From the NCBI GenBank assembly GCA_938016355.1, contig CALLWO010000148.1, positions 1-36,043 on the forward strand: DNA of 36,043 nt. Reading direction: 5' to 3'. The stretch is from an uncultured Boseongicola sp. (GTDB lineage Bacteria; Pseudomonadota; Alphaproteobacteria; Rhodobacterales; Rhodobacteraceae). The translations under genes were made by a program, and so were the position numbers. Below are positions 10,762-36,043 of the stretch, piece after piece. The number at the start of each line of letters is the position of its first letter. Positions within the stretch are counted from its first letter, which is position 1. The notes beneath the pieces were generated by a model. It was not told where the DNA came from. It was given only the letters and a program-made list of their open reading frames with translations, and searched no databases.

Positions 10762-11430
10762 TCATATCCAGATGACTTGGCTGTCCAACGCGTCGTTTTT
10801 GATAAACGGCACGCGTTCCGGCGCATCCACACGCGGCAGGTGGTTTTCAAGCTCAGCCAAAACCAGCTTTGTGATGAACGCCAGATCAAGCGCGCGCACG
10901 TCCGCCAATGGCACCCACGCCAAATGCGAAAGCTCCTCTGTGGCATCCGCCATCCTGTCAGGGTCACTCGCCAGTCTGTCCGCCGACGCCAGAAAAAAAC
11001 GCGCATCAAAGCGTCGTGGTCTGCCCGGCGGCGTGACGGCGCGAAAGAAATAGTGAAGTGACGACGCGTCCGGCACATGGCCTGACGCGGCGAACCCGGT
11101 CCAGTCGGCAGGTGGGTCAATCCACGTCCCCGTTTGGCCCAAAACCAACCCCGTTTCTTCCCAAAGTTCGCGGATCGCAGCGATTGCAAGCGTTCTTGGC
11201 GTTGCCCCATCCGAATGCGCCTGCAACCTTTCGGCGCAGGTCGCATTCAGATCAAGCGCCGGATGGATCAACGCGTCACCCTGATCAACCGCACCGCCAG
11301 GAAAGACGAATTTGTTGGGCATGAAAATCGCGCCGCGACCGCGCTGCCCCATCAATATGGCAGGCGCAGTTGCAGCATCCCGAACAAGAATGATCGTCGC
11401 CGCATCTCGGATGGGCACCGCGTCGTTCAT
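10762..11430 (-). CDS. NUDIX hydrolase, NUDT19-like
   Basis: A 222-residue NUDIX protein. FVFPGGAVDQGD (41-52) gives the start of the Nudix fold and RELWEETG (87-94) is the metal-binding REXXEEXG core. About 35 residues separate them, the insertion seen in NUDT19/RP2-type enzymes, which hydrolyse CoA and acyl-CoA derivatives. The C-terminus has the HLAWVPLADV segment of the NUDIX family. The gene is four bases downstream of the DUF983 gene on the same strand, so the two are likely one operon. The CoA substrate is inferred from subfamily resemblance. Confidence 0.85.
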   Translation of the reverse strand: MNDAVPIRDAATIILVRDAATAPAILMGQRGRGAIFMPNKFVFPGGAVDQGDALIHPALDLNATCAERLQAHSDGATPRTLAIAAIRELWEETGLVLGQTGTWIDPPADWTGFAASGHVPDASSLHYFFRAVTPPGRPRRFDARFFLASADRLASDPDRMADATEELSHLAWVPLADVRALDLAFITKLVLAELENHLPRVDAPERVPFIKNDALDSQVIWI

Positions 11431-15970: not shown

Positions 15971-17230
15971 TTAAGCCGTCGCCTTGCGTCGCGTGCGCTT
16001 TTTGGCGTTCGAATCTATAAAATCAAGCACGAGTGGGCGGATATTGTTGCGCCAGCTCTTGCCGGCAAATATACCATAATGCCCGGCACCAGCCTCCAGA
16101 TGCGCCGCTTTCTTCGCGTCCGGCAATCCCGTCAAAAGATCAAGCGCGGCAAGGCATTGCCCCGGAGCGGAGATGTCATCACGTTCGCCTTCAACGATCT
16201 TCACGGCCACATCTGTGATTGCGCCGATATCGACTTCGCGCCCATCCACGACAAAGCGATTCTCCGCAATCTCACGATTCTTGAAAATGCGTTCGACCGT
16301 CGACAGATAGAATTCCGCCGTCATATCCATCACGGCAAGATATTCGTCATAGAATTTGTTGTGTTTGTCGTGGTCGCCGGACTGCCCCTTGGACACACGC
16401 ATGATCTGGTCGGTAAAGGCCGCCGCATGGGTCTCGCTGTTCATCGACATGAACGACGCCAGTTGCAGAAGCCCAGGGTAAACCATACGCCCGACGCCGG
16501 CGTAATTGAATCCGACGCGCTGGATGATGAACTGTTCAAGTTGGCCCATTGTCACGCGACTGCCAAAATCGGTCACATCCGTAGGTGCTGCGTCAGGATC
16601 AATCGGCCCACCGATCAATGTCAGTGTTCTTGGCTGCGCCTTGGGGTCTGCCGCCGCAAGATAGGCTGTCGCCGCCAATGCCAAAGGCGCAGGCTGGCAA
16701 ACAGCGATCACATTCAGATCTGGCCCCAAATGTTTCATGAAGTCAGAGAGGTATAGCGTATAATCTTCGACGTCGAATTTGCCTTCGCTCACTGGAATAT
16801 CGCGCGCATTGTGCCAATCCGTGATCCAGACCTCGGCGTCCGGCAAAAGGCTTTGAACGGTCGAACGCAACAACGTCGCATAATGCCCGGACATCGGTGC
16901 CACGAGCAAAATCCGTCGTTTCTTGTCCGGACGCCCATGCACGTTGAACCGAAGCAAATCGCCAAAGGGGCGTTTGAGTTCAGCATCAACCGAAACGATA
17001 TGATCGCGCCCGTCTGACGCGACAACGGCATCAATCCCCCAATCGGGTTTGGCCACCATCCGACTGAACGTCCGTTCAGTAACTTCGCCCCAAGCCGCCA
17101 TCATTTTGAAAGCAGGGTTAGGAACGATCCCCCAAATCGGGTAGGATGCAAGAGCCTGAGCCGACGCACCCGCCCACTGATTGGTGTTCCGAATGGTCTC
17201 CATGAGGTCGTACGTCATCATGTATCGCAT
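15971..17230 (-). CDS. phaZ: Intracellular poly(3-hydroxybutyrate) depolymerase
   Basis: A 419-residue protein of the PhaZ1/PhaZa1 type. It has APMSGHYATLLRSTV near residue 112 and the catalytic cysteine in VCQPAPLALAA (Cys178), plus the later ISAPGQ and EAGAGHYGIFAG segments that supply Asp and His. It breaks intracellular PHB granules into 3-hydroxybutyrate when carbon is short. The ATG at 17230 is chosen because MRYMMTYDLMETIRN is the family's N-terminus; a longer frame starts at 17347 with non-family residues and would nearly reach phaC. It is divergent from phaC, and the 128-bp gap contains TGC-rich candidate regulator sites. Confidence 0.9.
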   Translation of the reverse strand: MRYMMTYDLMETIRNTNQWAGASAQALASYPIWGIVPNPAFKMMAAWGEVTERTFSRMVAKPDWGIDAVVASDGRDHIVSVDAELKRPFGDLLRFNVHGRPDKKRRILLVAPMSGHYATLLRSTVQSLLPDAEVWITDWHNARDIPVSEGKFDVEDYTLYLSDFMKHLGPDLNVIAVCQPAPLALAATAYLAAADPKAQPRTLTLIGGPIDPDAAPTDVTDFGSRVTMGQLEQFIIQRVGFNYAGVGRMVYPGLLQLASFMSMNSETHAAAFTDQIMRVSKGQSGDHDKHNKFYDEYLAVMDMTAEFYLSTVERIFKNREIAENRFVVDGREVDIGAITDVAVKIVEGERDDISAPGQCLAALDLLTGLPDAKKAAHLEAGAGHYGIFAGKSWRNNIRPLVLDFIDSNAKKRTRRKATA

Positions 17231-17312
17231 ACGGGGGCTACCTTTGTTGAACCGGGCCAAAACGTCGCTTTGACCAAATGGAACCCGCGACGGTATGACG
17301 ACGTTAATGTTA

Positions 17313-17340
17313 TGCAACAAGAAATGCTGCAACTGCAAAA
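17313..17340. promoter_or_regulatory. TGC-rich candidate PhaR region between phaZ and phaC
   Basis: TGCAA (17313-17317), TGCTGCA (17325-17331) and TGCAA (17334-17338) cluster within 28 bases. The middle element matches the left half of the perfect palindromes before phaP; the right half is degenerate. PhaR repressors bind TGC-rich DNA, so weaker binding here is plausible. Confidence 0.35.
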
Positions 17341-17358
17341 TAGGCACAAAACCCTGTT

Positions 17359-19158
17359 ATGACAACAAAAGAAACCGATTCGACCGAAGAACTCGAACGA
17401 CTGAACGAAAATGTCGCAAAGATCGAGGAGCTCTCAGAGCGGCTGGTCAGTGCCTTGTCGCAGAAAAAACCGATCCATCCCGGACTCGAAGGGCCGGGTC
17501 AGGATCTCTATATGAAGGCGGCCACATCCTACATGAACGAGATGGTGGCAAACCCCTCAAAGATCATCGAGCATCAGGTCGGCTATTGGGGCAAAGCGCT
17601 CACCCACTACATCGAGGCGCAGCAGAACTTTGCCCAAGGCAAGCTGGAACCGCCCACGGACGAGACACCGAAAGACAAGCGCTTTTCCGACCCGATGTGG
17701 GAAACGCACCCGTTCTTTAACTACGTCAAACAGCAATATCTGATGTCAGCGCAGGCAATATCGGATGCCGTCGATCAACTCGAAGGGCTTGACGAGACGG
17801 ACACGAAGCGCGCGCGGTATTTCACCCGGCAGATCGTCGATATGATGAGCCCGGCCAATGTTCTGGCAACCAATCCGACCGCGTTGACCAAGGCTGTCGA
17901 AACCAACGGTCAAAGCCTCGTGGATGGTTTGGAAAACCTTGTACGGGATATCGAGACGAATAAAGGCGATCTCGCGGTAACGCTCGCAGATAAAAACGCT
18001 TTCAAGATCGGTGAGAACCTTGCGACGACGCCGGGCGAGGTTGTGTTTCGAAACGAGATTTTCGAACTGATACAATACGCTCCGACGACCAAAACCGTGC
18101 ACGCGACGCCGCTGATCATCTTTCCGCCCTGGATCAACAAATTCTACATTCTCGACCTCAAGGAAAAGAACAGCCTGATCCGCTGGATCGTGGAACAGGG
18201 CTACACACTTTTCGTTGTCAGCTGGAAGAACCCCGATCCAAGCTATCGCGATTTTAGCCTCGATGACTATGTCGAAAAGGGCTATTTGACCGCGATTGAC
18301 GAGACGAAGAAAATCACGGGCGAAAAGCAGGTCAATGCCGTCGGCTATTGCATCGCGGGCACGACGCTGTCGCTCACTTTGGCCCTGATGAAAAAGCGGG
18401 GCGACACGTCGATCAAGTCCGCGACATTCTTCACCACGCTCGCCGATTTCTCGGACCAGGGCGAGGTCGGCGTGTTTCTGTCGAACGATTTCGTCGATTC
18501 AATTGATGCGGAAGTCGAACAAGAAGGCATTCTCGACAAATCCATCATGTCGCGCACCTTTTCCTTCCTGCGCTCAAACGACCTTGTCTACGGGCCTGCG
18601 ATCCGCAGCTATATGATGGGCGAAGCGCCACCGGCGTTCGATCTGCTCTACTGGAATGGCGACGGAACCAATCTGCCGGGCTGCATGGCGATGCAATATT
18701 TGCGAGGCCTGTGCCAGAGCAACAAATTCGCCGACGGCGGCTTTGAGATTTTGGGCGAGACGTTGAACATAGAGGATGTCAGCGTTCCGCTTTGTGCTAT
18801 TGCGTGCGAAACCGATCATATCGCAGCATGGGACGCCAGCTATCGCGGCGTTCAGCAAATGGGCAGCCGCTCCAAGACATTCATTCTTTCCGAGTCCGGC
18901 CATATCGCAGGGATCGTCAATCCGCCCTCGAAAAAGAAATACGGACATTACACCAATGACGATTGGTCCGTTGGGCCAGAAGACTGGCGTGCCTCGGCGG
19001 AATTCCACGAAGGATCATGGTGGCCAATGTGGAGCAAGTGGCTGAAAAGCCGGTCCGGGAAAAAGGTGCCGCAACGCATTCCGGGGGACCTCAAATCGCA
19101 TCCTGCGCTGTCGCCTGCCCCAGGAAAATATGTGTCGGAAACGCCAAAATCCGCCTAA
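17359..19158 (+). CDS. phaC: Class I PHA synthase
   Basis: A 599-residue polymerase that links 3-hydroxyacyl-CoA monomers into polyhydroxyalkanoate on the granule surface. The catalytic Cys331 lies in the modified lipase box GYCIAG, with Asp486 (CETDHIAAW) and His515 (SESGHIAG) completing the triad. The length is class I and no PhaE or PhaR subunit gene adjoins. The N-terminal 100 residues are the variable helical region. No ribosome-binding site precedes the ATG, so the start is set by the N-terminal context, and translation may be leaderless or weak. Its partners here are phaZ (divergent) and phaP (downstream). Confidence 0.95.
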   Translation: MTTKETDSTEELERLNENVAKIEELSERLVSALSQKKPIHPGLEGPGQDLYMKAATSYMNEMVANPSKIIEHQVGYWGKALTHYIEAQQNFAQGKLEPPTDETPKDKRFSDPMWETHPFFNYVKQQYLMSAQAISDAVDQLEGLDETDTKRARYFTRQIVDMMSPANVLATNPTALTKAVETNGQSLVDGLENLVRDIETNKGDLAVTLADKNAFKIGENLATTPGEVVFRNEIFELIQYAPTTKTVHATPLIIFPPWINKFYILDLKEKNSLIRWIVEQGYTLFVVSWKNPDPSYRDFSLDDYVEKGYLTAIDETKKITGEKQVNAVGYCIAGTTLSLTLALMKKRGDTSIKSATFFTTLADFSDQGEVGVFLSNDFVDSIDAEVEQEGILDKSIMSRTFSFLRSNDLVYGPAIRSYMMGEAPPAFDLLYWNGDGTNLPGCMAMQYLRGLCQSNKFADGGFEILGETLNIEDVSVPLCAIACETDHIAAWDASYRGVQQMGSRSKTFILSESGHIAGIVNPPSKKKYGHYTNDDWSVGPEDWRASAEFHEGSWWPMWSKWLKSRSGKKVPQRIPGDLKSHPALSPAPGKYVSETPKSA

Positions 19159-19186
19159 ATATCTGAAAACAAAAGAAACAAAAATT

Positions 19187-19229
19187 TGCTGCATCGCAGC
19201 ATAAGGCCTTGAATTGCTGCATCGCAGCA
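19187..19229 (+). promoter_or_regulatory. Two identical PhaR-type palindromes before phaP
   Basis: The 15-base palindrome TGCTGC-ATC-GCAGCA occurs twice with no mismatch, at 19187-19201 and 19215-19229, 28 bases apart. Each contains the CTGC-N3-GCAG core described for PhaR of Rhodobacter-type bacteria. The second copy sits exactly in the spacer of the phaP promoter, so binding should block RNA polymerase. PhaR senses PHB and leaves DNA when polymer accumulates, letting phasin be made. Confidence 0.8.
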
Positions 19230-19237
19230 TGTATATC
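19209..19237 (+). promoter_or_regulatory. phaP promoter
   Basis: TTGAAT at 19209-19214 and TATATC at 19232-19237 are separated by 17 bases, close to the sigma-70 consensus. The downstream PhaR-type palindrome fills 15 of those 17 bases. The predicted start would be near 19244, leaving about 54 bases of leader before the phasin ATG. Confidence 0.65.
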
Positions 19238-19297
19238 CTTTGCAGACGCAGAAAGCGGGTCTCCCCGCTCAACGCTTTCAAATTAGGAGAGAGACCA

Positions 19298-19747
19298 ATG
19301 GCTAAAGCACAAAACGAATACACAAAGATGATGAAAGACATGATGGGCGCATTCCCAGTTGATATGACTGCGATGCAGGATGCTTTCAAATCGCAAGCTG
19401 ACTTTGCAGACAAAATGTCGAAAGTCGTTCTGGTTGCTGCTGAGAAATCCACCGAGATTTCCGCAAACTGGACAAAATCCACAATCGGTAAAGTTGGCAA
19501 CGTGACAACTGCAAAAGCCGATCCTGCGGATTACACAAAAGCAATGACAGACTTCGCTTCGGCACAAGCTGAAATGAGCTCAGAATCCATGGCTGCTTTC
19601 GCTGAAATCGCGAAAAAAGTTCAGATGGAAACTGTTGAGTTGATGATGGCCGCTGGCAAAGACATCAGCGACGACGCAACGGCTGCTGTTAAGAAAGCAA
19701 CCAACGACGTCACAGCTGCTGCTAAAAAAGCCGCTGCTGCGAAGTAA
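19298..19747 (+). CDS. phaP: Phasin, PHA granule surface protein
   Basis: A 149-residue alpha-helical, amphipathic protein rich in Ala, Lys, Asp and Met, with no cysteine or membrane helix. Relevant segments are MTAMQDAFKSQADFADKM and MAAFAEIAKKVQMETVELMMAAGKD, and the C-terminus is an Ala/Lys-rich tail. Phasins coat PHB granules and control their size and number. A TTAGGAGAG site before the ATG is close to perfect. Codons (GCT, AAA) differ from the GC-rich neighbours, as expected of a highly expressed gene. It sits behind a PhaR-controlled promoter and is followed by a strong terminator. Confidence 0.92.
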   Translation: MAKAQNEYTKMMKDMMGAFPVDMTAMQDAFKSQADFADKMSKVVLVAAEKSTEISANWTKSTIGKVGNVTTAKADPADYTKAMTDFASAQAEMSSESMAAFAEIAKKVQMETVELMMAAGKDISDDATAAVKKATNDVTAAAKKAAAAK

Positions 19748-25603: not shown

Positions 25604-25686
25604 ACGCCGCCACCCTGCCCGGCCCGACTTCCAAGCGCAAGACAGTCCGCTTGCCCACGACGCGTTCCCCTGCTCTAGTCAGGCAC

Positions 25687-27123
25687 ATGCCGGAACTTGA
25701 CCTCATCCTAAAAGGCGCGCGCGTCCTGACGTCCCAAAGTGACGGCATGGCCGATATTGGCATTTCGAACGGCGTCATCACGGCTCTCGGCTCCATAACC
25801 ACCCCAACCATCCAAACCATTGATGCAACAGGTAAAATCATCACACCCGGCGGCGTCGACGCGCATTGCCACATCGAACAATTGTCCGGCATGGGGTTGA
25901 TGAACGCCGATACATTCGAAACCGCCACCCGCTCGGCTGCAATTGGTGGCACGACGACAACCATCAGCTTTGCCCCGCAATCCGCGGATATGCCCCTCGC
26001 TGATGCGCTAAAGGATTATGAAAAGCGAGCCGCGCGCGGCGCTCTCATCGACCACGCTTTCCACATTATCCTGAGCGACCTCGACGCGCCGGATATCCGG
26101 CGGGATCTGCGAAATGCCATCCGCGCCGGTCACCGTTCGATCAAGGTGTTCACAACCTACAACATCCAGCTTTCCGACCGCGACATCTGCGACGTGCTTG
26201 CCATCGCTAAGGAAGAAGGCGCGCTCGTTTGCGTCCATGCCGAAAACGACGGTTTGATCGGCTGGACCAAGGATCAATTGCTGAAATCGGGCAAAACCAC
26301 ACCGCCATTTCACGCAATTTCTCATCCTCGCCTCGCTGAGATTGAAGCCGTCGATCGCTTGATCCGCTTTGCGGAGTTTTTCGCGACACCCGTCATGCTC
26401 TTTCACATATCCACACGTGAAGCGGTTGACGCCATTCGCTCCGCCAAGGCGCGCGGCGTTCCGGTCTGGGCCGAAACCTGCCCGCATTATCTTTTCATGA
26501 CGGCCGAGGTGCTCGACGCCGACGGCGACACCGGCGCCAAGTGGATGTGCTCACCACCCCAACGCACAAAAGACGACCATTGCGCCCTTTGGGACGGGCT
26601 AAACGACGGTACGCTGTCGTTGGTCTCTTCCGATCACGCACCTTATCGCTTTGATAAAACAGGTAAACTTTCCGCTGGTCCGGGCGCTGATTTCTCGAAG
26701 AAAGCCAACGGCTTGCCCGGTCTCGAAGTGCGTATGCCGCTCATGTTTGATGCGATGATGAACGGCGAAAAACTGACCCCTCAGAAATTTGTTGAGCTGA
26801 ATTGCACGGCGCCTGCCCGACTTCACGGATTGCCAAACAAAGGCGATATCGCACCGGGCTATGACGCTGATCTGGTCATCTGGGACAGCGAGAAAACGAT
26901 CACTTATGGCGCAAACGACCTCCACGACAACGTGGGATACAACCCTTGGGAAGGCTACACGATCACCGGCTGGCCAACCCATGTTTTCTTGCGCGGACAG
27001 GAGATCGTGACAGGCGGCGCGCTTCAGACCGACCCTGGCCGAGGGCGCTGGATCACCCGACCGCATTTGGGGATCACGACCGATGCTACGCCTGCTCGCG
27101 AGTATGTCGAGGCCACCAGATGA
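25687..27123 (+). CDS. Dihydropyrimidinase / hydantoinase family amidohydrolase
   Basis: A 478-residue cyclic amidohydrolase. Binuclear metal ligands are His60 and His62 (GVDAHCH), the carboxylated Lys153 (SIKVFTTY), His184 (VCVHAEND), His240 (MLFHIST) and Asp316 (VSSDHAPY). The ETCPHYL segment (263-269) is typical of D-hydantoinases. It should open a hydantoin or dihydropyrimidine ring. The ATG at 25687 is chosen over an upstream in-frame TTG because it matches the family N-terminus (ELDLILKGARVL). It heads a four-gene operon with a VOC protein, a racemase and a DapA-family enzyme. The exact ring substrate is not shown. Confidence 0.9.
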   Translation: MPELDLILKGARVLTSQSDGMADIGISNGVITALGSITTPTIQTIDATGKIITPGGVDAHCHIEQLSGMGLMNADTFETATRSAAIGGTTTTISFAPQSADMPLADALKDYEKRAARGALIDHAFHIILSDLDAPDIRRDLRNAIRAGHRSIKVFTTYNIQLSDRDICDVLAIAKEEGALVCVHAENDGLIGWTKDQLLKSGKTTPPFHAISHPRLAEIEAVDRLIRFAEFFATPVMLFHISTREAVDAIRSAKARGVPVWAETCPHYLFMTAEVLDADGDTGAKWMCSPPQRTKDDHCALWDGLNDGTLSLVSSDHAPYRFDKTGKLSAGPGADFSKKANGLPGLEVRMPLMFDAMMNGEKLTPQKFVELNCTAPARLHGLPNKGDIAPGYDADLVIWDSEKTITYGANDLHDNVGYNPWEGYTITGWPTHVFLRGQEIVTGGALQTDPGRGRWITRPHLGITTDATPAREYVEATR

Positions 27124-27506
27124 TGCGGCCCGACGCCCCGGAACTTGCCATCACATTTCTCTATTACCGCGATCTTTCGCGCGCCGAGACCTTCTATCGC
27201 GACATGCTCGGCCTGCCGCTTGCCATTGATCAGGGATGGGCGAAAATATTTCGCCTCGCGGATGGCGCACATGTTGGTTTGGTCGACGAAGCAAGGGGCA
27301 TGAACAACTGGCAGGCGCAGAAATGCGTCCAGCTTTGTTTGCGCGTTGCCGACGTAGATGCCTGGTATGACTGGGCCAATACAAACGAATTCAACGACGT
27401 AAGCGAAATGTTCCGCAACGACGAGATCGGCATTCGCGCCTTTGTCTTCTTCGACCCCGAAGGCTATCAAATCGAAATTCAGACCCCGACACGACCCGGC
27501 GCATGA
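27120..27506 (+). CDS. VOC-superfamily (glyoxalase-like) protein
   Basis: A 128-residue vicinal-oxygen-chelate protein with one module pair: ITFLYYRDLSRAETFYRDMLGLPL near the N-terminus (split by a loop), CVQLCLRVADVDAWYDW in the middle and FVFFDPEGYQIEI near the end. Relatives include glyoxalases, dioxygenases and binding proteins. The start overlaps the hydantoinase stop, and a second ATG follows at once. Its role here is unknown; in this operon it may act on a downstream product. Confidence 0.8.
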   Translation: MMRPDAPELAITFLYYRDLSRAETFYRDMLGLPLAIDQGWAKIFRLADGAHVGLVDEARGMNNWQAQKCVQLCLRVADVDAWYDWANTNEFNDVSEMFRNDEIGIRAFVFFDPEGYQIEIQTPTRPGA

Positions 27507-28180
27507 CCCTCTTCGTGATCAACCCCAATTCAACGCAAGCCGTCACCGACGGTATTGATGCGGCCATCTCCCCATTGCGGCAATGGGGCCAAAAGATCGA
27601 ATGTCTGACCCTCGCAGATGGGCCACCGGGCATCGAAACCGATCAGCATGTGGTTGATGTCGTCGCACCAACACTTGCGCTGGTGGAAACTTTGAAGCCC
27701 CGCGCCACAGGTTTCGTCATCGCCTGCTTTTCCGACCCCGGCGTCGCCGCCCTGCGGAAGATCACACCCCTGCCCGTTCTGGGCATCCGCGAGGCGGCCA
27801 TCACCCAAGCCCTCACCCTCGGGCACAGGTTCGGGATCATCGCCATTGGCGAAGCCTCCATCCCGCGCCACCTTGCCGCGGTTGAGGCCATCGGTGTCAC
27901 CGCGCGCCTTGCCGGGGACCGCGCTCTTGGCCTCTCGGTTGTCGACCTCTCTGATGCAACGAAAACCGAAGCGCGCCTCACACACATCGCCAAAACCCTG
28001 CGCGATACTGACAAGGCCGACGTGCTCATCCTCGGATGCGCCGGAATGGCCCAATACCGCGCAACCCTCGAAGCCAGCGTCGGCATCCCTGTGATTGACC
28101 CTTGTCAGGCCGCCGTTGCCTTGGCACTTGGACGCATTACTCTTAACCAAACTCACCAGCCGGAGATCGCACATGCTTGA
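27503..28180 (+). CDS. Hydantoin racemase-like Asp/Glu racemase family protein
   Basis: A 225-residue protein with the family's two catalytic cysteines, Cys75 (FVIACFSDPG) and Cys179 (ILGCAGMA). Their spacing matches HyuA hydantoin racemases. The N-terminal LFVINPNST motif is typical of this subfamily. It would interconvert enantiomers of a substituted hydantoin so that the hydantoinase can use both. The four-base overlap with the VOC gene upstream and the eight-base overlap with the DapA-family gene downstream support a single operon. Confidence 0.85.
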   Translation: MTLFVINPNSTQAVTDGIDAAISPLRQWGQKIECLTLADGPPGIETDQHVVDVVAPTLALVETLKPRATGFVIACFSDPGVAALRKITPLPVLGIREAAITQALTLGHRFGIIAIGEASIPRHLAAVEAIGVTARLAGDRALGLSVVDLSDATKTEARLTHIAKTLRDTDKADVLILGCAGMAQYRATLEASVGIPVIDPCQAAVALALGRITLNQTHQPEIAHA

Positions 28181-29084
28181 CGCAACCGCCAAAGGTGTCT
28201 TCACCATCGCCGCCACGCCCTTTCTTCCCGATGGCGCGCTCGACACTGACAGCCTTGATCGCATGACGGACTTCTATCTCGAGCGCGGCGCGACCGGCCT
28301 CACCATCCTCGGGATCATGGGGGAAGCGGGAAAACTGACCGCCGCCGAAAGCGCGCAAGTCATCGAACGCGTCTGCGCGCGTGCCGATGTCCCGGTGATC
28401 GTCGGCGTCTCCGCGCCTGGGTTCGCCGCCATCGAAGCGCTCTCCAACGTCGCCATGGAAAAAGGCGCGGCGGGCGTGATGATTGCACCTCCCGGCAACT
28501 TGAAAACCGACGCCCAGATTACAAGCTATTACCGAACCGCTGGCGAACGCCTCGGCGACATCCCTTGGGTTATTCAGGACTTCCCACTTGTCACAGGCGT
28601 GCAGATTGACCCCGGCGTCATTCTCAACATCGTCGAGCAGAACCCGGCCTGCGTGATGCTCAAACACGAGGACTGGCCCGGCCTTGAGAAAATCGCGGCC
28701 CTGCGCAAAGCCAGTGACAAAGGCGCGCGGCGCATTTCGATCCTGTGCGGCAACGGCGGCCAGTTTCTTCTTGAGGAAATGATCCGTGGCGCCGATGGCG
28801 CAATGACCGGCTTCGCCTATCCCGAAATGATGCGCGATGTTGTCAAGCTGATGAACGCCGGCGACGAAGCGGTGGCGCGCGATGTCTTTGACGCCTACCT
28901 CCCGCTCATCCGATACGAAAGCCAACCGGGTCTCGGCCTCGCCATCCGCAAATACATTCTCGCAAAGCGCGGCGCGATCGCCCATGACAGCGTGCGCGCA
29001 CCGGGGCCCAAACTTTCAACCGCTGCCATCGCCGAAATCGAAACTCTGATCGCACGACAAGACGCCCGACTGGCCGCACTCTGA
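28173..29084 (+). CDS. DapA/N-acetylneuraminate lyase family protein
   Basis: A 303-residue TIM-barrel protein of the DHDPS family with Schiff-base Lys164 (VMLKHEDW). Other key residues differ from DapA: the usual GTTGE loop is GIMGE (47-51), losing two threonines, and the catalytic Tyr of the LYN-VP motif is Gln135 (VIQDFP). It is thus probably not a dihydrodipicolinate synthase but an aldolase or decarboxylase for another oxo-acid. A GGAG site about seven bases before the ATG, inside the racemase gene, sets the start. The operon context suggests a product of the hydantoin pathway as substrate. Confidence 0.8.
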   Translation: MLDATAKGVFTIAATPFLPDGALDTDSLDRMTDFYLERGATGLTILGIMGEAGKLTAAESAQVIERVCARADVPVIVGVSAPGFAAIEALSNVAMEKGAAGVMIAPPGNLKTDAQITSYYRTAGERLGDIPWVIQDFPLVTGVQIDPGVILNIVEQNPACVMLKHEDWPGLEKIAALRKASDKGARRISILCGNGGQFLLEEMIRGADGAMTGFAYPEMMRDVVKLMNAGDEAVARDVFDAYLPLIRYESQPGLGLAIRKYILAKRGAIAHDSVRAPGPKLSTAAIAEIETLIARQDARLAAL

Positions 29085-29261: not shown

Positions 29262-30071
29262 GTGGCCCATATAATCGTCGTTGGAAACGAAAAAGGCGGC
29301 GCGGGGAAATCCACCGTGTCGATGCATATCGCGACCGCGCTTGTGCGCATGGGGCATGTGGTGGGGGTCCTTGATCTTGACCTCAGACAACGCAGCTTCG
29401 GGCGCTACGTCGAAAACCGCAGGACGTTTCTCGAGACAGAAAACCTCGATCTGCCCAGCCCGATCTACCGCGAACTCCCCAAGATCAGCGCCGACAGCCT
29501 CGGCCCCGGCGAGAACGTCTATGACCAGCGGCTGTCAGCCGCCGTGACCGGCCTTGAACGCGAAGTCGAATTTATCCTGATCGATTGCCCCGGCTCTCAC
29601 ACCCGCCTTAGCCAGGTCGCCCATTCCCTCGCCGATACGTTGGTCACGCCGCTGAACGACAGTTTCGTCGACTTCGATCTGCTGGCGCGGATCGATCCGC
29701 AAACCAACAAAATCCTCGGGCCATCGGTCTATTCAGAAATGGTCTGGAATGCCCGCCAGTTGCGCGCGCAGGCGGGGCTTGATCCCATCGACTGGATCGT
29801 GGTGCGCAACCGCGTCGGCGCGCAAGCCATGCACAACAAGAAAAAGATGGCCGAGGCGGTCAATTCGCTGGCCAAACGCATCGGCTTTCGTGTGGCGCCC
29901 GGATTTTCGGAACGCGTCATTTTCCGGGAACTTTTCCCACGCGGTCTGACGCTCTTGGATTTGCGCGACATCGGCATTCAGAACATGAACCTGTCAAACG
30001 TCGCAGCGCGTCAGGAATTGCGCGAGCTTTTGAAAGAAATCCGTCTGCCCGGAGTCACGGTCGACTTTTAA
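29262..30071 (+). CDS. mipZ: Cell-division positioning ATPase MipZ
   Basis: A 269-residue ParA/MinD-family ATPase. The deviant Walker A is KGGAGKST (11-18) with Lys11, and LDLDLRQRSFGRYVENR (38-54) is a MipZ hallmark. It has the DCPG motif and the C-terminal FRELFPRGLTLLDL segment. In Caulobacter MipZ forms a gradient from the poles, bound to ParB, and blocks FtsZ ring formation except at midcell. The GTG start is supported by AGAGG upstream. The gene is convergent with the next and overlaps it by 17 bases. Confidence 0.92.
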   Translation: MAHIIVVGNEKGGAGKSTVSMHIATALVRMGHVVGVLDLDLRQRSFGRYVENRRTFLETENLDLPSPIYRELPKISADSLGPGENVYDQRLSAAVTGLEREVEFILIDCPGSHTRLSQVAHSLADTLVTPLNDSFVDFDLLARIDPQTNKILGPSVYSEMVWNARQLRAQAGLDPIDWIVVRNRVGAQAMHNKKKMAEAVNSLAKRIGFRVAPGFSERVIFRELFPRGLTLLDLRDIGIQNMNLSNVAARQELRELLKEIRLPGVTVDF

Positions 30072-31047
30072 ACCGACCAAAGGCCTTGAGAAATCCGTGA
30101 GCCACATCGCCAAGGGCCGCGCGCATCGGGTGTTGCCTGCTCTCGGCTGCCTGAAATTCGCTCTCGATGATCTCTTCCTGAGACGCAATCGGCTGAAAGA
30201 ACGTGAGCGGGTGTAAACCGTTTGTGGCATTTGACGATGCCGCACCACGGCGGCGGGAAGTCCCGCGCTTTGGCAAGCGCCGATAGACCATCATCCCGCC
30301 CCCGATAACGATCACAAGGAAACCAACCCAAAACAAAACCATCTGTTTTCGCGTGTCATCCCCGACCGGCGCGGCACTGGTTTTGGGCGCCACATAGGGC
30401 GACACCAACGGAAGCGCAGCGGCATCGGGTCCTAGCATCTCGTCGAGCGTCTCTTCGAACGCGTCTCCGCCCAGCACACCGTCCCAAAAGGCCCGGTTAA
30501 AGATCGCGCCCGATGTCGACACCACGATACCGTCATAACCTTCACCAATCATTTGCAACCCAAAGTCGCGCAGAATACGCGGCGCGCTCCCGCGCTCGGT
30601 CACATCATAGACGAAGATAGCCGCGGGTTGCGGGTTGCGTGCGCCACTGGGGCGCGCAACGGGGCGCGGCGCACCTTGCGCGCGTCCGGAATGGTGCGCG
30701 ATATGGCTCAATGCGCGGGCACGCCCGCCTTCACTCACTGGATAGACCGGAAGAAACACAAACCGTTCCTGATCCGCGCCTTCCCCGAAATACCGGATGG
30801 CGGCATGGCCTAGATGCACCTCGGCCAGCACGCTCACTTCATTCAGCATATTTGCGTGCACTTCAGGATCGAAATCCTGCACCAGAACCGGGTCCGGCAA
30901 GCCAACCTTTTGCGCCAACGTCTGGTCGGCAAGTTTCTGGTCGTGCACATATCCAAGCAGCATCGACGCCCCCAAAAGGAAGCTCCCGGCGGTTAACCAC
31001 ATCCGTGGTGCCTTGATCAGATGCTTGAATTTTTGCGACACAGTCAC
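30055..31047 (-). CDS. Membrane protein of unknown function
   Basis: A 330-residue protein with an N-terminal membrane helix (about 16-33), a 200-residue non-cytoplasmic domain and a second helix near residue 240, followed by a basic cytoplasmic tail (about 85 residues). The central domain has PAAIFVYDVTERGS and YDGIVVSTSGAIFN segments. I recognise no family. The GTG start has AGGA four bases upstream. Convergence with mipZ may be chance; it is not evidence for a division role. Confidence 0.7.
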   Translation of the reverse strand: MTVSQKFKHLIKAPRMWLTAGSFLLGASMLLGYVHDQKLADQTLAQKVGLPDPVLVQDFDPEVHANMLNEVSVLAEVHLGHAAIRYFGEGADQERFVFLPVYPVSEGGRARALSHIAHHSGRAQGAPRPVARPSGARNPQPAAIFVYDVTERGSAPRILRDFGLQMIGEGYDGIVVSTSGAIFNRAFWDGVLGGDAFEETLDEMLGPDAAALPLVSPYVAPKTSAAPVGDDTRKQMVLFWVGFLVIVIGGGMMVYRRLPKRGTSRRRGAASSNATNGLHPLTFFQPIASQEEIIESEFQAAESRQHPMRAALGDVAHGFLKAFGRFKSRP

Positions 31048-31236
31048 GACGTCCTGTTACTCAAACTCTCTACGTTCACCGATCATGCAGAGTTAACGGG
31101 GCGTTTACGTGACCCTTTCGCGGAACATTGTCCGCGCACCCGCGACAGTCTGTTTGCAAGAATGCCAGCAATGGCCACTTCAGGGGACGGGAAATCATCC
31201 AATGTGTCCCGTCCGCCGCCCCAATTTGGCGAAACC

Positions 31237-31287
31237 TTGACCAGCTGAGGTCAATGTCGCGCCTTTGATCCGATGTAGCGTCGGATC
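31237..31287 (-). terminator. Two inverted repeats after the small membrane protein gene
   Basis: GATCCGA (31267-31273) pairs with TCGGATC (31281-31287), overlapping the stop codon of the 56-residue ORF. TTGACC (31237-31242) pairs with GGTCAA (31249-31254). On the minus strand they would end that transcript; there is no T run, so the strength is uncertain. Confidence 0.4.
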
Positions 31288-31456
31288 ATACCACCGCGTT
31301 TGACTCGCGAAGTGGCACAACATTTTGAGCCGCGATTTCACGCAACCACGCCTCATATGGCGTCTTTGGGCGACGGGAATCGACTATGAACGCGCCCAGC
31401 GATGAGCAGAGCGAAAACGAAATCCCACCAAGTACAAATGCAACCAAAAACAACAT
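31286..31456 (-). CDS. 56-residue single-pass membrane protein
   Basis: A short protein with one membrane helix at about residues 2-25 and a polar tail containing SRRPKTPYEAWLREIAAQ. A GAGG site seven bases before the ATG is well placed. I do not recognise it. The gene stands alone between a hairpin and a long leader with an FNR-type site and a good -10 element. Small membrane proteins of this size often bind and modulate larger membrane complexes, but none is indicated here. Confidence 0.65.
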   Translation of the reverse strand: MLFLVAFVLGGISFSLCSSLGAFIVDSRRPKTPYEAWLREIAAQNVVPLRESNAVV

Positions 31457-31662
31457 CACAACCTCGAACTCGTAACTAAACCAACACTTAACTTCACACA
31501 CTTTAGCCAACTTGGCCGAGTTGAGGGTGCCGACACACAACACACGACACCCTCATCAACTCGCTAGACTTAGCTTTTACTCGTACACACACATGGCAAA
31601 CTCAAAAACAAACAACTCGTTACTGCCATGATCATAATTTGCCATGCTAATGGGGCATTAGT
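31457..31662 (-). promoter_or_regulatory. Structured leader, -10 element and possible leader peptide
   Basis: Reading the minus strand, TATGAT (31631-31636) is a near-consensus -10. The leader then contains a 12-pair stem: 31518-31529 pairs with 31548-31553 and 31557-31562, with a three-base bulge (31554-31556). That bulge is an ATG on the minus strand opening a 17-codon ORF to 31503, with two Cys-rich codon clusters. CATGGCAAA (31592-31600) and TTTGCCATG (31638-31646) form a further inverted repeat around the promoter. The region is otherwise free of genes. Confidence 0.4.
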
Positions 31663-31676
31663 TTGACTTATATCAA
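31663..31676. promoter_or_regulatory. FNR-type box (TTGAC-N4-ATCAA)
   Basis: TTGAC-TTAT-ATCAA matches nine of ten bases of the FNR/FnrL consensus. It lies 26 bases upstream of the minus-strand -10, so its centre is near -45 of the likely start, close to the usual activating position. It would make the small membrane protein gene oxygen-responsive. No forward gene follows within reach. Confidence 0.55.
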
Positions 31677-31775
31677 AGTTTATTCAGTTAAAATCGGCGT
31701 TTTTTAGGGAATCTGCTCAACGATCTTTTTGAAACCTTGGTGATCGTTTCCAGATCCAAGACAAGCGCCCAATTT

Positions 31776-31997
31776 CTAGGTCAGAAGGGCCGCGACTCCG
31801 GGCAGATCAGTGATTCCCACGATTTCCACCGCATCCAGCCGCCGGCCCAAACGTTCTTCAAGCGCCAAAACCAGCCGAAAATGCGCCAGACTATCCCAGC
31901 TTGGCGTCGTGCCAAGGCTCGTTTCGCCATCCACCTCGCCCACTGAAAGCCCAAGCGCTGTCGCGACGATCTCTTTTGCAGCCAAATCACTCGTCAT
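31776..31997 (-). CDS. Acyl carrier protein
   Basis: A 73-residue carrier protein whose DSL motif (Asp35-Ser36-Leu37 in SWDSLAHF) is the 4'-phosphopantetheine attachment site. It is too diverged from AcpP for housekeeping fatty-acid synthesis. It is last in an overlapping five-gene operon and overlaps the GNAT gene by four bases. Its likely partner is the adenylating enzyme two genes upstream, which would load it with an acyl or aminoacyl group. Confidence 0.85.
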   Translation of the reverse strand: MTSDLAAKEIVATALGLSVGEVDGETSLGTTPSWDSLAHFRLVLALEERLGRRLDAVEIVGITDLPGVAALLT

Positions 31998-32593
31998 GAC
32001 GTTTCATTCCGGCGCTTTTCGATCCAGTCGTCTTTCAGGAATTCGAAGTGGAGCGTGTCGAACAATTCATTCGTCGCCGGACAACGCCAGGATTTGCGGT
32101 CATGCCCGATCAGCCGAAACCCCAGCTTTTTGTAATTATAGATCGAGCTGAAATTCCGCTCCAGCACGCGCCCGAAAAATCGCTCAACCCTTGGCGATTG
32201 GCTGAAGTGATCCATCAGACCCGCGCGCACTTCTTCGAATACGCCTTTGCCCCACCAGTCCTCGGCATGCACCACGATGGCAAGCTTGACCGTCCCTGAC
32301 CGATCCAGCGTAATCCGGTGCGCGCCGATCGTCCCTTTAATCTCCTTGGCGACTATCGCGTGATAGAACAGCTTGGAGCCATCGGGCTTTCCGATCTTCT
32401 TCACCCACTCCGATTGAGAATACGCCGCTTCGCCGAACATCAGGCTTTGCAGCGTGTCGGGGTTCGTCCGCCAAGGCGCGGTGACTTTAATGGCCTCACT
32501 CTGATTGCAAGGAACAAGATAAAACCGCTCGGTTTCGACGTGTTTCGAAAGGAACGCATCCGGCTCTGTCTTTTTTGCAAAACTCAGGACCAT
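31994..32593 (-). CDS. GNAT-family acyltransferase
   Basis: A 199-residue protein of the RimJ/RimL-like GNAT type. The fold features are an N-terminal strand with ERFYLVPC, a KLAIVVHAEDWWGKGVFEEVR segment (acyl-CoA binding region, broken by a turn) and ERNFSSIYNYKKLGFRLIG, which is the typical C-terminal motif. It would transfer an acyl group to an amine or hydroxyl. Overlaps of ten bases with the adenylating enzyme and four bases with the carrier protein suggest they work together, perhaps with the carrier as donor. Confidence 0.8.
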   Translation of the reverse strand: MVLSFAKKTEPDAFLSKHVETERFYLVPCNQSEAIKVTAPWRTNPDTLQSLMFGEAAYSQSEWVKKIGKPDGSKLFYHAIVAKEIKGTIGAHRITLDRSGTVKLAIVVHAEDWWGKGVFEEVRAGLMDHFSQSPRVERFFGRVLERNFSSIYNYKKLGFRLIGHDRKSWRCPATNELFDTLHFEFLKDDWIEKRRNETS

Positions 32594-33993
32594 TTCGCCA
32601 CCATCTCCCCGCGAACATCCGCGCGCGCAATCTTTCCACGATCATTCTTCGGGATGTCGTCAACGATCTCAAGCTGAAACGGAACGGCTTCAATCCGCGC
32701 GTGCGCCCGGCACCAGTCCAAAAGCGCTTCAGCCGTCAGCGCAGGCGATTGCGCCTTCACCACCGCCCCGACAACTTCGCCCGATATTTCGTCGGGGATG
32801 CCAAAGGCACAGGCTTCGATCACATCCACATGGCGCTCCAGAAGCATATCCACTTCCTCGGCCAGCACTTTGATCCCACCACGATTGATCTCGTGCTTAT
32901 TGCGTCCAAGCAATCGCAACGTCTGGTCCGCTTCAAGCTGCCCAATATCGCCGGTCAGCATATAGTCGCCCTTCATTAGCGCGCGTGTCGCTTCTGGCGC
33001 GCCCCAAAGGCCCAGCATCATCGATGGGCTTTTAACCGCAACCTCGCCCTTGCCCACATCACACAATTGCCCCTCGCGCAGAACCTTGAACGCACCGCCC
33101 CATGGTCGCCCGACGAACCCTTCGGCCACGCTCGCGTCCGTCAACCGCCCGCCGGACACCCAGTTGGCGGTTTCGGTCATGCCATAAGTATTGAAAACCT
33201 CGCCCGTACCGCACCAGTCGCAAATGCTGCGCCAAAGCGGCTCCGACAACGGGGCCGAACCGACATGAACGCGAACCGGTGCCGATTTGGGCGGCGGTGA
33301 CATTTGCAAAACCATCCGCCACATCGAAGGAACCGAACTGAAAAATGTGATATCAAGACGATCAAGCGTCGCCCCAAAGCCGGGCAATTCAGCGACTCCA
33401 AGCGTCGGCATAAGGTGAACCGTCTGCCCGGCATAAAGCGCGCTCAGGCAATTGCCGATAAGCCCGTGCCCAAAGAAAAGAGGCAAAGTGCAAAGCGTCT
33501 CGCGCAAAGACTCCTCTCCAATCTCAGCCACATTCAACTCCAAACGACGCTCCAAAGTCGCAAGGCTATGAACAATCCCCTTCGGGTCACCCGTCGTGCC
33601 CGACGTCATCAAGATCAACGCGGCCCCCGGCAATCCGTTGTCCAACGCCGTTTTTGGCTCGAAGCTTTGCCGTCCGCCCCCGTCCACCCAAAGGCGCGCA
33701 CCGACTTTGGCCACGACCCGCGCCTTTTCGTCCTCTGACAGTTTGGGGTTCACCAACACCGCGCACGCCCCAAGCGTCCAAACCGCGAAAAGCGCCGTGA
33801 GGCAGGCAAGCGGATCACTTTCGGCCACGACGACGCGCGCACCGGCCTCAACCCCCACCAATCGTATAGCGGCGGCCTCCACATCGACACGGGCCGACAG
33901 GGCTTCATGATCCAACGCCGCACCGGTGCGCACATCGCGCAACATCATGCTTTGTGGAATGCTTTTCAAAAGGTTCGTGGTCGCGAATGTCAT
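32584..33993 (-). CDS. AMP-forming acyl/aminoacyl adenylating enzyme
   Basis: A 469-residue ANL-superfamily enzyme. It has the phosphate loop MTSGTTGDPKG, the TYGMTET motif (A5), the YMLTGD motif (A7), the hinge GRNKHEINRGG (A8) and the catalytic Lys in PKNDRGKIAR (A10). It activates a carboxylate as an adenylate and then loads a thiol. The stand-alone size resembles DltA, DhbE or acyl-ACP ligases. The start ATG (33993) overlaps the YjbF stop by one base; an upstream in-frame start adds non-family residues. Which acid is used is not evident from the sequence. Confidence 0.85.
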   Translation of the reverse strand: MTFATTNLLKSIPQSMMLRDVRTGAALDHEALSARVDVEAAAIRLVGVEAGARVVVAESDPLACLTALFAVWTLGACAVLVNPKLSEDEKARVVAKVGARLWVDGGGRQSFEPKTALDNGLPGAALILMTSGTTGDPKGIVHSLATLERRLELNVAEIGEESLRETLCTLPLFFGHGLIGNCLSALYAGQTVHLMPTLGVAELPGFGATLDRLDITFFSSVPSMWRMVLQMSPPPKSAPVRVHVGSAPLSEPLWRSICDWCGTGEVFNTYGMTETANWVSGGRLTDASVAEGFVGRPWGGAFKVLREGQLCDVGKGEVAVKSPSMMLGLWGAPEATRALMKGDYMLTGDIGQLEADQTLRLLGRNKHEINRGGIKVLAEEVDMLLERHVDVIEACAFGIPDEISGEVVGAVVKAQSPALTAEALLDWCRAHARIEAVPFQLEIVDDIPKNDRGKIARADVRGEMVAKWS

Positions 33994-34670
33994 CAGTCGA
34001 GCGGCTCTAGCACTTCGTAAATCAGCGTCCCCTGATCCGGTCCCGTCCACTGCGCCGAAGACCAGATGTAGCCTGTGTCAGCCTCAACCAGGTGACGGTT
34101 TTCAAACCGCGTTCCGCCTGCCTCACAGGTTTCGGCCACCACAACGACATCGACGCGTCGATCCAAGATCTCATGCGGCTTTGACGAGCCAGTTTGAAAA
34201 ACGCAGTCAAATCGCACCGCCGTGCCAAGCCCGGTTGAATCCAACATATAGTGCCGCTCCACTGTCGCGGGCCAGTCACCAATCGGACGCGGATTGGCAA
34301 TCGGGTCCATCTCGACAGTCTCAACCGGTTCAAGATTATAGCCGTATCCATAGGTGCTTTGGATCAACCCACCTTCCAAAACCAACCGACGATCACCGCG
34401 CGCGCTATAGGTGATCCGCCCTTCGTCCCCGCGCACCGCGACCAGCAAACCGGTCTTTTCAATCAACGTTTCTTCGACACGCAACATGGCAAGGCCCAGT
34501 CGGTCAACCTGCGCGCGCGTGATGGTTTTGGCGACGTCCGGCGCTGACGCCTCCGCCGTTTCAGACGCGCGCAATTCGCCAAGCACAGCCGCCGTAACCT
34601 CGTTTGGCCCGGACGAGGAACAGCTCGCAAGGCCAGCCATCATAACAACAATCGCTAAAGGCTGCTTCAT
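33993..34670 (-). CDS. YjbF/GfcB-family lipoprotein
   Basis: A 225-residue predicted lipoprotein with lipobox LASC (Cys17) and the YjbF arrangement: an N-terminal ITRAQVDRLGLAML segment, RITYSARGDRRLVLEGG and a C-terminal extended domain. YjbF is part of the yjbEFGH exopolysaccharide operon and is anchored in the outer membrane. The ATG overlaps the YjbH stop (ATGA) and is preferred to an in-frame start six codons upstream. YjbG and YjbE are not seen in the window and may lie to the right. Confidence 0.75.
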   Translation of the reverse strand: MKQPLAIVVMMAGLASCSSSGPNEVTAAVLGELRASETAEASAPDVAKTITRAQVDRLGLAMLRVEETLIEKTGLLVAVRGDEGRITYSARGDRRLVLEGGLIQSTYGYGYNLEPVETVEMDPIANPRPIGDWPATVERHYMLDSTGLGTAVRFDCVFQTGSSKPHEILDRRVDVVVVAETCEAGGTRFENRHLVEADTGYIWSSAQWTGPDQGTLIYEVLEPLD

Positions 34671-36043
34671 TTCCAAAACGTCCCCCATGCATCAACTACC
34701 CGACGCGCATTGGCACGGCGAACGCGGGTGATCAAACGATCGGGCGTCGCCACACGCGCACCGGCATCGCCGAAATTTCCACCAAGCCGCAACGTGCTTT
34801 TGCGCCGAGTTTCAATCGGGGCCAGCGTCGAAAACGGGATTTCAACGCGCGCTCCTATCTTCACTTTTTCGTCGCGATTATCTTCCGTCAGCGTCGCAAA
34901 TGTCGCCACATCCCACCCGTTGGCGAAACTGCGCGACACGGTCAGCGTCGTGCCCCAGTCCCCGGCCAAATAGCGCCCGACATCCACCTGCGCGCCCAAC
35001 CCCTTGAACCCCGTGTTCCAATAAAGCGAAACGTGCCCCGTCACAGCGTCCAGATCCAAAACCCCGAATGCATCATCATAATCGCGTTTTCTGGCATAGG
35101 TCACTTCGCCACCAAGCGCCCAGTTCGTCGCATCCGGCGTCCACAAAATCTCTGCGCTCGCACCCGCATATTGCCGTTCCAAAATGCCAAACGCCAACCG
35201 CGAATGAAGCGCGGGCGCAGGCTTCGCGATATGCGCGGCAAACAGGCGATCTAAGCGAACACTGCGCTGATCATAGGCGGACGCATCACTGCGCACGCTT
35301 GGCGTTGCGGGCGGTGCCGCACCGGACCCACCACCTGCCAATTGATAAGAAAGCGTACCAGAGGCGTAAAATGACCGTGAGAAGTCATAGCGTCCTTGAG
35401 CAAACAGGGCGAGTTCCGGCTCAAACCCACCGGTTGAATCTATAGCAAGTGCCACAGCGGGCGTGGCAGACCATGAAAAGCCACCTTCAAAAGGCCGGAC
35501 CCAATCATATTCCTCCGCGCGCCTCACCTCGTTGCGCGTTGCGATTAATGTCCGACTCTCCGCGCCGCGCCCCGGCGTGTTTTCAAGCGTTTGGATGCCG
35601 TCACGCGGCACAAGAAACGTGGTTGTCGCCACACCGCGCTCGAAAACCGTGATGTTAAACGCCTCGACCGAGGCGGGCGCGACGCCCGACAAAATACGTG
35701 CTGTGCGTCCGACGACGTTGGGGATCGCGGCGGTCCCGCGTGTCGCAACGCCGACTGACAAGACATTCGATGCAGCCGAAAATCCAACAAGCTGGATTGA
35801 CGCCTCACCCAATCGCTCCTCCGCGGCACGCTGCAAAGCCGCCGCAACATTCGCATCTGTTGCCCAGCCTGCGTTGTTACGTCCGGCCGTTGGGCGCGGC
35901 GTGAACAACGGTGGCGGTGCCCCAAGATCGGGCGGGAACAAAGGCCGCGTCGGATTGGCCGACAATGTCAGCGCGACCCCAAGCGTTTCCCCGCCGCGCT
36001 GAAACGCTGTGATGTCCAAGCCCTCAGCCACCCGATAATGCGC
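34667..36043 (-). CDS. YjbH/GfcD-family outer-membrane protein, partial at right edge
   Basis: The visible 458 residues have the alternating beta-strand pattern of an outer-membrane beta-barrel with strands such as LYWNTGFKGLGAQVDVGRYLAGDWGTTLTV (split by a turn), and end in RRVVDAWGTFWK. This matches the C-terminal half of YjbH. The reading frame has no stop at the window edge, so the N-terminus and start lie beyond 36043. YjbH is thought to be an outer-membrane component of exopolysaccharide export. It is the first visible gene of the overlapping operon. Confidence 0.75.
   Translation of the reverse strand, partial: AHYRVAEGLDITAFQRGGETLGVALTLSANPTRPLFPPDLGAPPPLFTPRPTAGRNNAGWATDANVAAALQRAAEERLGEASIQLVGFSAASNVLSVGVATRGTAAIPNVVGRTARILSGVAPASVEAFNITVFERGVATTTFLVPRDGIQTLENTPGRGAESRTLIATRNEVRRAEEYDWVRPFEGGFSWSATPAVALAIDSTGGFEPELALFAQGRYDFSRSFYASGTLSYQLAGGGSGAAPPATPSVRSDASAYDQRSVRLDRLFAAHIAKPAPALHSRLAFGILERQYAGASAEILWTPDATNWALGGEVTYARKRDYDDAFGVLDLDAVTGHVSLYWNTGFKGLGAQVDVGRYLAGDWGTTLTVSRSFANGWDVATFATLTEDNRDEKVKIGARVEIPFSTLAPIETRRKSTLRLGGNFGDAGARVATPDRLITRVRRANARRVVDAWGTFWK

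Follow-up and report, generated by a model that had tools for sequence, protein, structure and literature searches.

The window analysed here is a complete contig of 36,043 nucleotides from an uncultured Boseongicola sp., part of a 2.66-Mb assembly that is ~80% complete. Five genes on the minus strand run up to the end of this contig, and read 5' to 3' on that strand their order is yjbH-yjbF-ligase-GNAT-ACP. The window ends where the contig does, so the start of the operon lies out of view.

34667..36043, minus strand: yjbH, outer-membrane exopolysaccharide protein (PF06082, E 5e-79), truncated at its 5' end by the contig boundary
33993..34670, minus strand: yjbF, GfcB/YjbF-family outer-membrane lipoprotein (PF11102, E 6e-25)
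32584..33993, minus strand: AMP-forming carboxylate ligase (PF00501, E 8e-45; PF13193, E 2e-10)
31994..32593, minus strand: GNAT acyltransferase (PF13302, E 3e-10)
31776..31997, minus strand: acyl carrier protein (ACP; PF00550, 20.3 bits), phosphopantetheine site WDSL with Ser36

Neighbouring genes overlap by 4 bases (yjbH/yjbF), 1 base (yjbF/ligase, in the sequence TGATG), 10 bases (ligase/GNAT) and 4 bases (GNAT/ACP), exactly as reported in the initial annotation; the genes are overlapping but separate, and the word "fused" in its title does not apply. The identities it had assigned from the translations (YjbH, YjbF, an adenylate-forming enzyme, a GNAT and an ACP) were borne out by family matches for all five ORFs, with the ACP scoring just below the PF00550 cut-off of 20.8 bits and its serine motif conserved, as residues W34, D35, S36, L37 and H39 are invariant in 13 relatives. 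The frames encoding YjbH (458 aa) and the ligase (469 aa) exceed every ORF obtained when the region was shuffled 200 times, the longest ORF per shuffle averaging 165 aa and reaching 311 aa at most. The G+C content is 0.605 for yjbH, 0.583 for yjbF, 0.595 for the ligase gene and 0.59 for the ACP gene, and lower, at 0.542, for the GNAT gene. That yjbF and the ligase gene share a single base would speak against an assembly chimera at this junction. Neither a sigma-70-like promoter nor a terminator was found at positions 31000-32200, a negative that carries no weight either way. Elsewhere in the window, MipZ, which points to the Alphaproteobacteria as the presumable class, is encoded at 29262-30071; positions 25651-29084 carry a hydantoinase-like ORF (recognised by eye), an Asp/Glu/hydantoin racemase (PF01177) and a dihydrodipicolinate-synthase-family gene (PF00701); and ORFs at 15971-19747 resemble, by eye from their translations, a polyhydroxyalkanoate depolymerase, a synthase and a phasin.

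The yjbH-yjbF pair and the five-gene set in relatives

The YjbH match spans positions 214-657 of the 658-position PF06082 profile, the N-terminal third of the protein lying beyond the contig end, and yjbH is single-copy in the ~80% complete host assembly. The YjbF translation carries a lipobox-like LASC motif. Judged by sequence, the double-barrel protein YjbH and the lipoprotein YjbF, whose genes are neighbours, are unremarkable members of the YjbEFGH/Gfc group. Short gene overlaps such as those seen here are typical of the YjbEFGH and group 4 capsule GfcABCD operons (PMC8592465, PMC9603273), but the present locus differs from them in its reverse yjbH-yjbF order and in the acyl-transfer trio that follows downstream. 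In E. coli a YjbG/GfcC gene adjoins the pair; here none is located between yjbH and yjbF, which overlap directly, and anything encoded ahead of yjbH would lie past the edge of the contig.

A search of 61 genomes gave YjbH matches in 24, the host among them, and 18 yjbH loci from 17 relatives, mostly 20 kb each, were examined for the remaining genes of the set. The initial annotation had treated the five genes as one system, a view that by its own account lack of conservation in relatives would refute; a co-occurrence check detected a ligase, GNAT or ACP of the trio kind at 0 of these 18 YjbH/YjbF loci, many of which have yjbF as the final gene of the run. Two relatives carry both parts on separate contigs: in G001 the trio is on contig C6 and yjbHF on C15, and in G1207 contig C4 has the trio and C7 has yjbHF in complete form. 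The junction between yjbHF and the trio is known from one genome only, that of the host, whose genus is represented by this single genome in the comparison set. A conserved five-gene system is thus rejected; the joining of the five genes is local and does not amount to a system in its own right. Because it is not conserved, the five-gene system would itself be without importance.

Conservation and probable chemistry of the ligase-GNAT-ACP trio

The ligase belongs to a well-separated family, whose members score >550 bits against a 13-row profile on which the best other ligases score ≤261 bits, and which was found in 17 genomes of the host's family and others of the class. In 16 of these 17 the GNAT and ACP genes adjoin the ligase gene, mostly with overlapping starts, and the suggestion in the initial annotation that these three genes make up a loading-and-transfer module gains support from this arrangement. 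The exception is G559, where an ACP domain accompanies the ligase but no GNAT adjoins it. Several of the 17 genomes were found via the GNAT, and the unbiased count is given by the relatives found by the ligase alone, five of six of which carry the trio (G001, G208, G712, G1207 and G1224, but not G559). Conversely, searching with the GNAT alone gave 12 loci in relatives, of which 10 have the ligase beside the GNAT and 11 an ACP. Pairwise distances between ligases and between GNATs are correlated (0.77, reached in 0 of 2000 permutations), as are those of GNAT and ACP (0.34, 7 of 2000); the ligase-ACP correlation is 0.19 (118 of 2000), the ACP being a short protein. At one locus (L072) the gene order is ligase-ACP-GNAT with the three genes still together, which indicates that the association survives rearrangement. 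The adjacency counts and the distance correlations together show that the trio is largely co-inherited: it is a real, conserved and rare gene set, inherited largely as a unit. Plasmid spread was rejected, as no match to the GNAT or the ligase was found in 72,556 plasmid records, and so was an anti-phage role for the trio, for which no PADLOC match was obtained. A single-sequence ligase scan of genome contigs recovered one distant acyl-CoA ligase only (L028), beside an enoyl-CoA-hydratase-like gene. A 5.4-kb contig (L075:3342-4198) carries a GNAT and an ACP without a ligase, with the GNAT match split over two frames like a decayed copy.

The ligase has the features of the ANL superfamily, namely the AMP-binding core (PF00501), the C-terminal domain (PF13193), the TSGTTG motif (T130-G135) and the catalytic lysine K454, the last two being invariant in 13 ligases. 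The initial annotation had likened it to DltA, and the presence of an adenylating enzyme and a small carrier protein beside envelope genes does recall a Dlt-type D-alanylation system, which here would aminoacylate an exported surface polysaccharide. In DltA-type adenylation domains the Asp of the A4 motif binds the amino group of the substrate. When a fragment of DltA (3e7w, residues 150-255) was aligned with the 13 ligases, this Asp (in FSFDLS) fell opposite an invariant Gly, and the ligase is nearest to acyl-CoA-type ligases. The phosphopantetheine serine expected of a Dlt small carrier is present in the WDSL motif of the ACP, and is common to all acyl carrier systems. The trio resembles DltA/DltC in pairing an adenylating enzyme with a small carrier, and differs from them in having a GNAT and in lacking both the amino-binding Asp and any DltB or DltD. 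The absence of the latter two beside the ligase, which the initial annotation had pointed out, was confirmed: neither DltB (MBOAT) nor DltD was found among the neighbouring ORFs down to 27.5 kb, the upstream side ending at the contig end. Membership in the Dlt system is rejected on the missing Asp and the missing DltB/DltD, and with the five-gene set itself not conserved, a D-alanylation-like function for this locus is highly improbable.

Among enzymes of solved structure, those closest to the ligase are carboxylate ligases, including oxalate-CoA ligase and MenE. The closest of these, an oxalate-specific enzyme, does not by itself identify the acid. Given these relatives and the Gly at the DltA Asp position, the substrate of the ligase is likely to be a non-amino carboxylic acid. 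The same resemblance to CoA ligases in sequence and fold would fit an ordinary acyl-CoA ligase, with the GNAT drawing on acyl-CoA or acetyl-CoA, the usual donors of GNATs, and the ACP serving another purpose. Against this, the ACP gene keeps its place beside the other two in 16 of 17 genomes, one of them with an altered gene order, and we regard this alternative as improbable. The predicted structure of the GNAT (pLDDT 90.6) has as its structural relatives RimL, SpeG, PseH and the lasso-peptide acetyltransferase 9iy3, most of which act on amines, and its fold is nearest to that of amine acetyltransferases, PseH among them.

Systems in which an adenylating enzyme, a carrier and a GNAT act together have been described. 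In SB-203208 biosynthesis, transfer from adenylating enzyme to ACP to GNAT was shown in vitro for SbzL/SbzG/SbzI, and this system, SbzB/SbzG/SbzC and FeeM (as cited in PMC6331615) resemble the trio in combining a stand-alone adenylating enzyme, a small carrier and a GNAT (PMC6331615). In systems of the Sbz/FeeM kind the three are encoded together, as they are in the 16 trio genomes, a likeness drawn at the level of the gene set. Unlike the trio, the Sbz systems serve natural-product synthesis in Streptomyces, where both the acids and the acceptors are known, and they have no link to envelope genes. The trio most likely works like Sbz-type ACP-dependent GNAT transfer.

The wbeL region of Vibrio cholerae O1, where we take a carrier protein and an acyltransferase to be present as well, offers a comparison from surface glycan synthesis. 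The published account describes WbeL as a 471-aa protein with a putative ATP-binding domain that is needed for tetronate N-acylation of perosamine (PMC3441752). The likeness lies in the N-acylation of an exported amino sugar, and WbeL is here compared with the ligase by description only; that region also makes the acid, and no GNAT was noted in the account (PMC3441752). In the polar flagellin glycosylation islands of Aeromonas, an ACP and an AMP-dependent synthetase occur in pseudaminic-acid loci, as at one of the trio loci below (L076); the group II islands add a 3-oxoacyl-ACP reductase, LuxE and LuxC, and the only islands for which a GNAT is named are those of group III (PMC7874193). No description of the ligase-GNAT-ACP trio or of the five-gene set was found in the open-access papers searched, and the trio is apparently a variant of known acyl-transfer chemistry that has so far gone undescribed.

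Proposed function and candidate acceptors

Positions 31776-33993 may be read as a self-contained three-gene acyl-transfer cassette that recurs in varied genomic settings. The ligase would activate a carboxylic acid, probably small and non-amino, as an acyl-AMP and would load the acyl group onto the ACP at its phosphopantetheine arm, from which the GNAT would transfer it to an amino group. That ACP rather than CoA is loaded, and that acyl-ACP is the GNAT donor, we infer. In the host the likeliest acceptor would be an amino sugar within the polysaccharide that YjbH and YjbF handle, acylated in the cytoplasm before export, since the cassette forms the 3' part of the overlapping yjbH-yjbF run; this overlap, found in one genome, weakly suggests an exported amino sugar. 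As a whole, an ACP-dependent acyl-transfer cassette with an amino-sugar acceptor in the host is probably the correct account of the locus. Of the two roles offered in the initial annotation, acylation of a surface glycan is possible and aminoacylation is unlikely.

The glycan view draws on two further observations. At L076 the trio lies within a pseudaminic-acid locus whose PseB, PseC, PseG and PseI score above NCBIfam cut-offs, and a PF02719 nucleotide-sugar dehydratase gene is located directly before yjbH in six relatives' loci. In G559 (L110) the ligase is found among sugar genes, the GNAT not being adjacent. Downstream of this ligase, L110:10736-11884 encodes a fusion protein that joins an acyl carrier domain and a PEP-mutase/methylisocitrate-lyase-like domain.

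Other settings point to a different acceptor, in which the trio acylates a ribosomal lasso-like peptide or another small metabolite and its position behind yjbHF reflects incidental co-transcription. In G712 (L109) and G208 (L033), which are among the closest relatives of the host trio, the trio adjoins a lasso-like set of PqqD, a B2 protease and an HprK-like protein, and in G1224 the same set is on a separate 5.5-kb contig (L126), the trio lying towards one end of a different small contig. Across 372 genomes from the order, the HprK-like subtype was found in two, each of which also carries the trio; the overlap has a hypergeometric probability of 9e-5, a post hoc value from a profile built from the same carriers, so that only the absence of the subtype elsewhere is informative. 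The match of the GNAT model to the lasso-peptide acetyltransferase 9iy3 fits this alternative as well. However, there is no B2 (PF13471) or HprK-like match in the host genome at its ~80% completeness and no B2 match in the trio carrier G001 (99% complete), and the trio is also found in glycan loci such as L076. We consider this explanation rather unlikely for the locus as a whole. As to the acceptor alone, a glycan has close to an even chance, with a peptide or other small molecule taking up the rest.

Most trio loci lack adjoining glycan genes, and two or three have the lasso-like set; outside the settings described in this section, the trio loci have no neighbours in common. A doubtful but wider reading would make the trio an ACP-dependent N-acylation cassette of Alphaproteobacteria, acting on surface sugars and in a rare lasso-like peptide pathway, and coupled here to a polysaccharide export pair. 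If the cassette account of the trio is right, the presence of this compact unit would predict which bacteria put unusual acyl groups on surface amino sugars or peptides, and one acyl-transfer cassette would be common to glycan and peptide modification. The three enzymes are small enough for direct tests of the acid and the acceptor.

Several minor features were observed around the trio loci. Three loci of one genus (L067, L073 and L074) have a gene of ~390 aa upstream of the trio, which in the one tested (L073:6969-8132) is ATP-grasp-like by profile. The rare lasso-like sets are located at L109:7812-13168, L033:7349-9178 and L126:1085-4667; no lasso cyclase was noticed at any of the three, and an NTP_transf_5 protein is part of the set in L109 and L126. 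In L109 a small opposite-strand ORF (11010-11291) carries a YxxP leader-like motif. At L128:9245-9779, near lasso-type genes, three tandem and near-identical ORFs of ~54-58 aa, ending in TISGRxGxDGGxxPSSYTAS, look like repeated peptide precursors.
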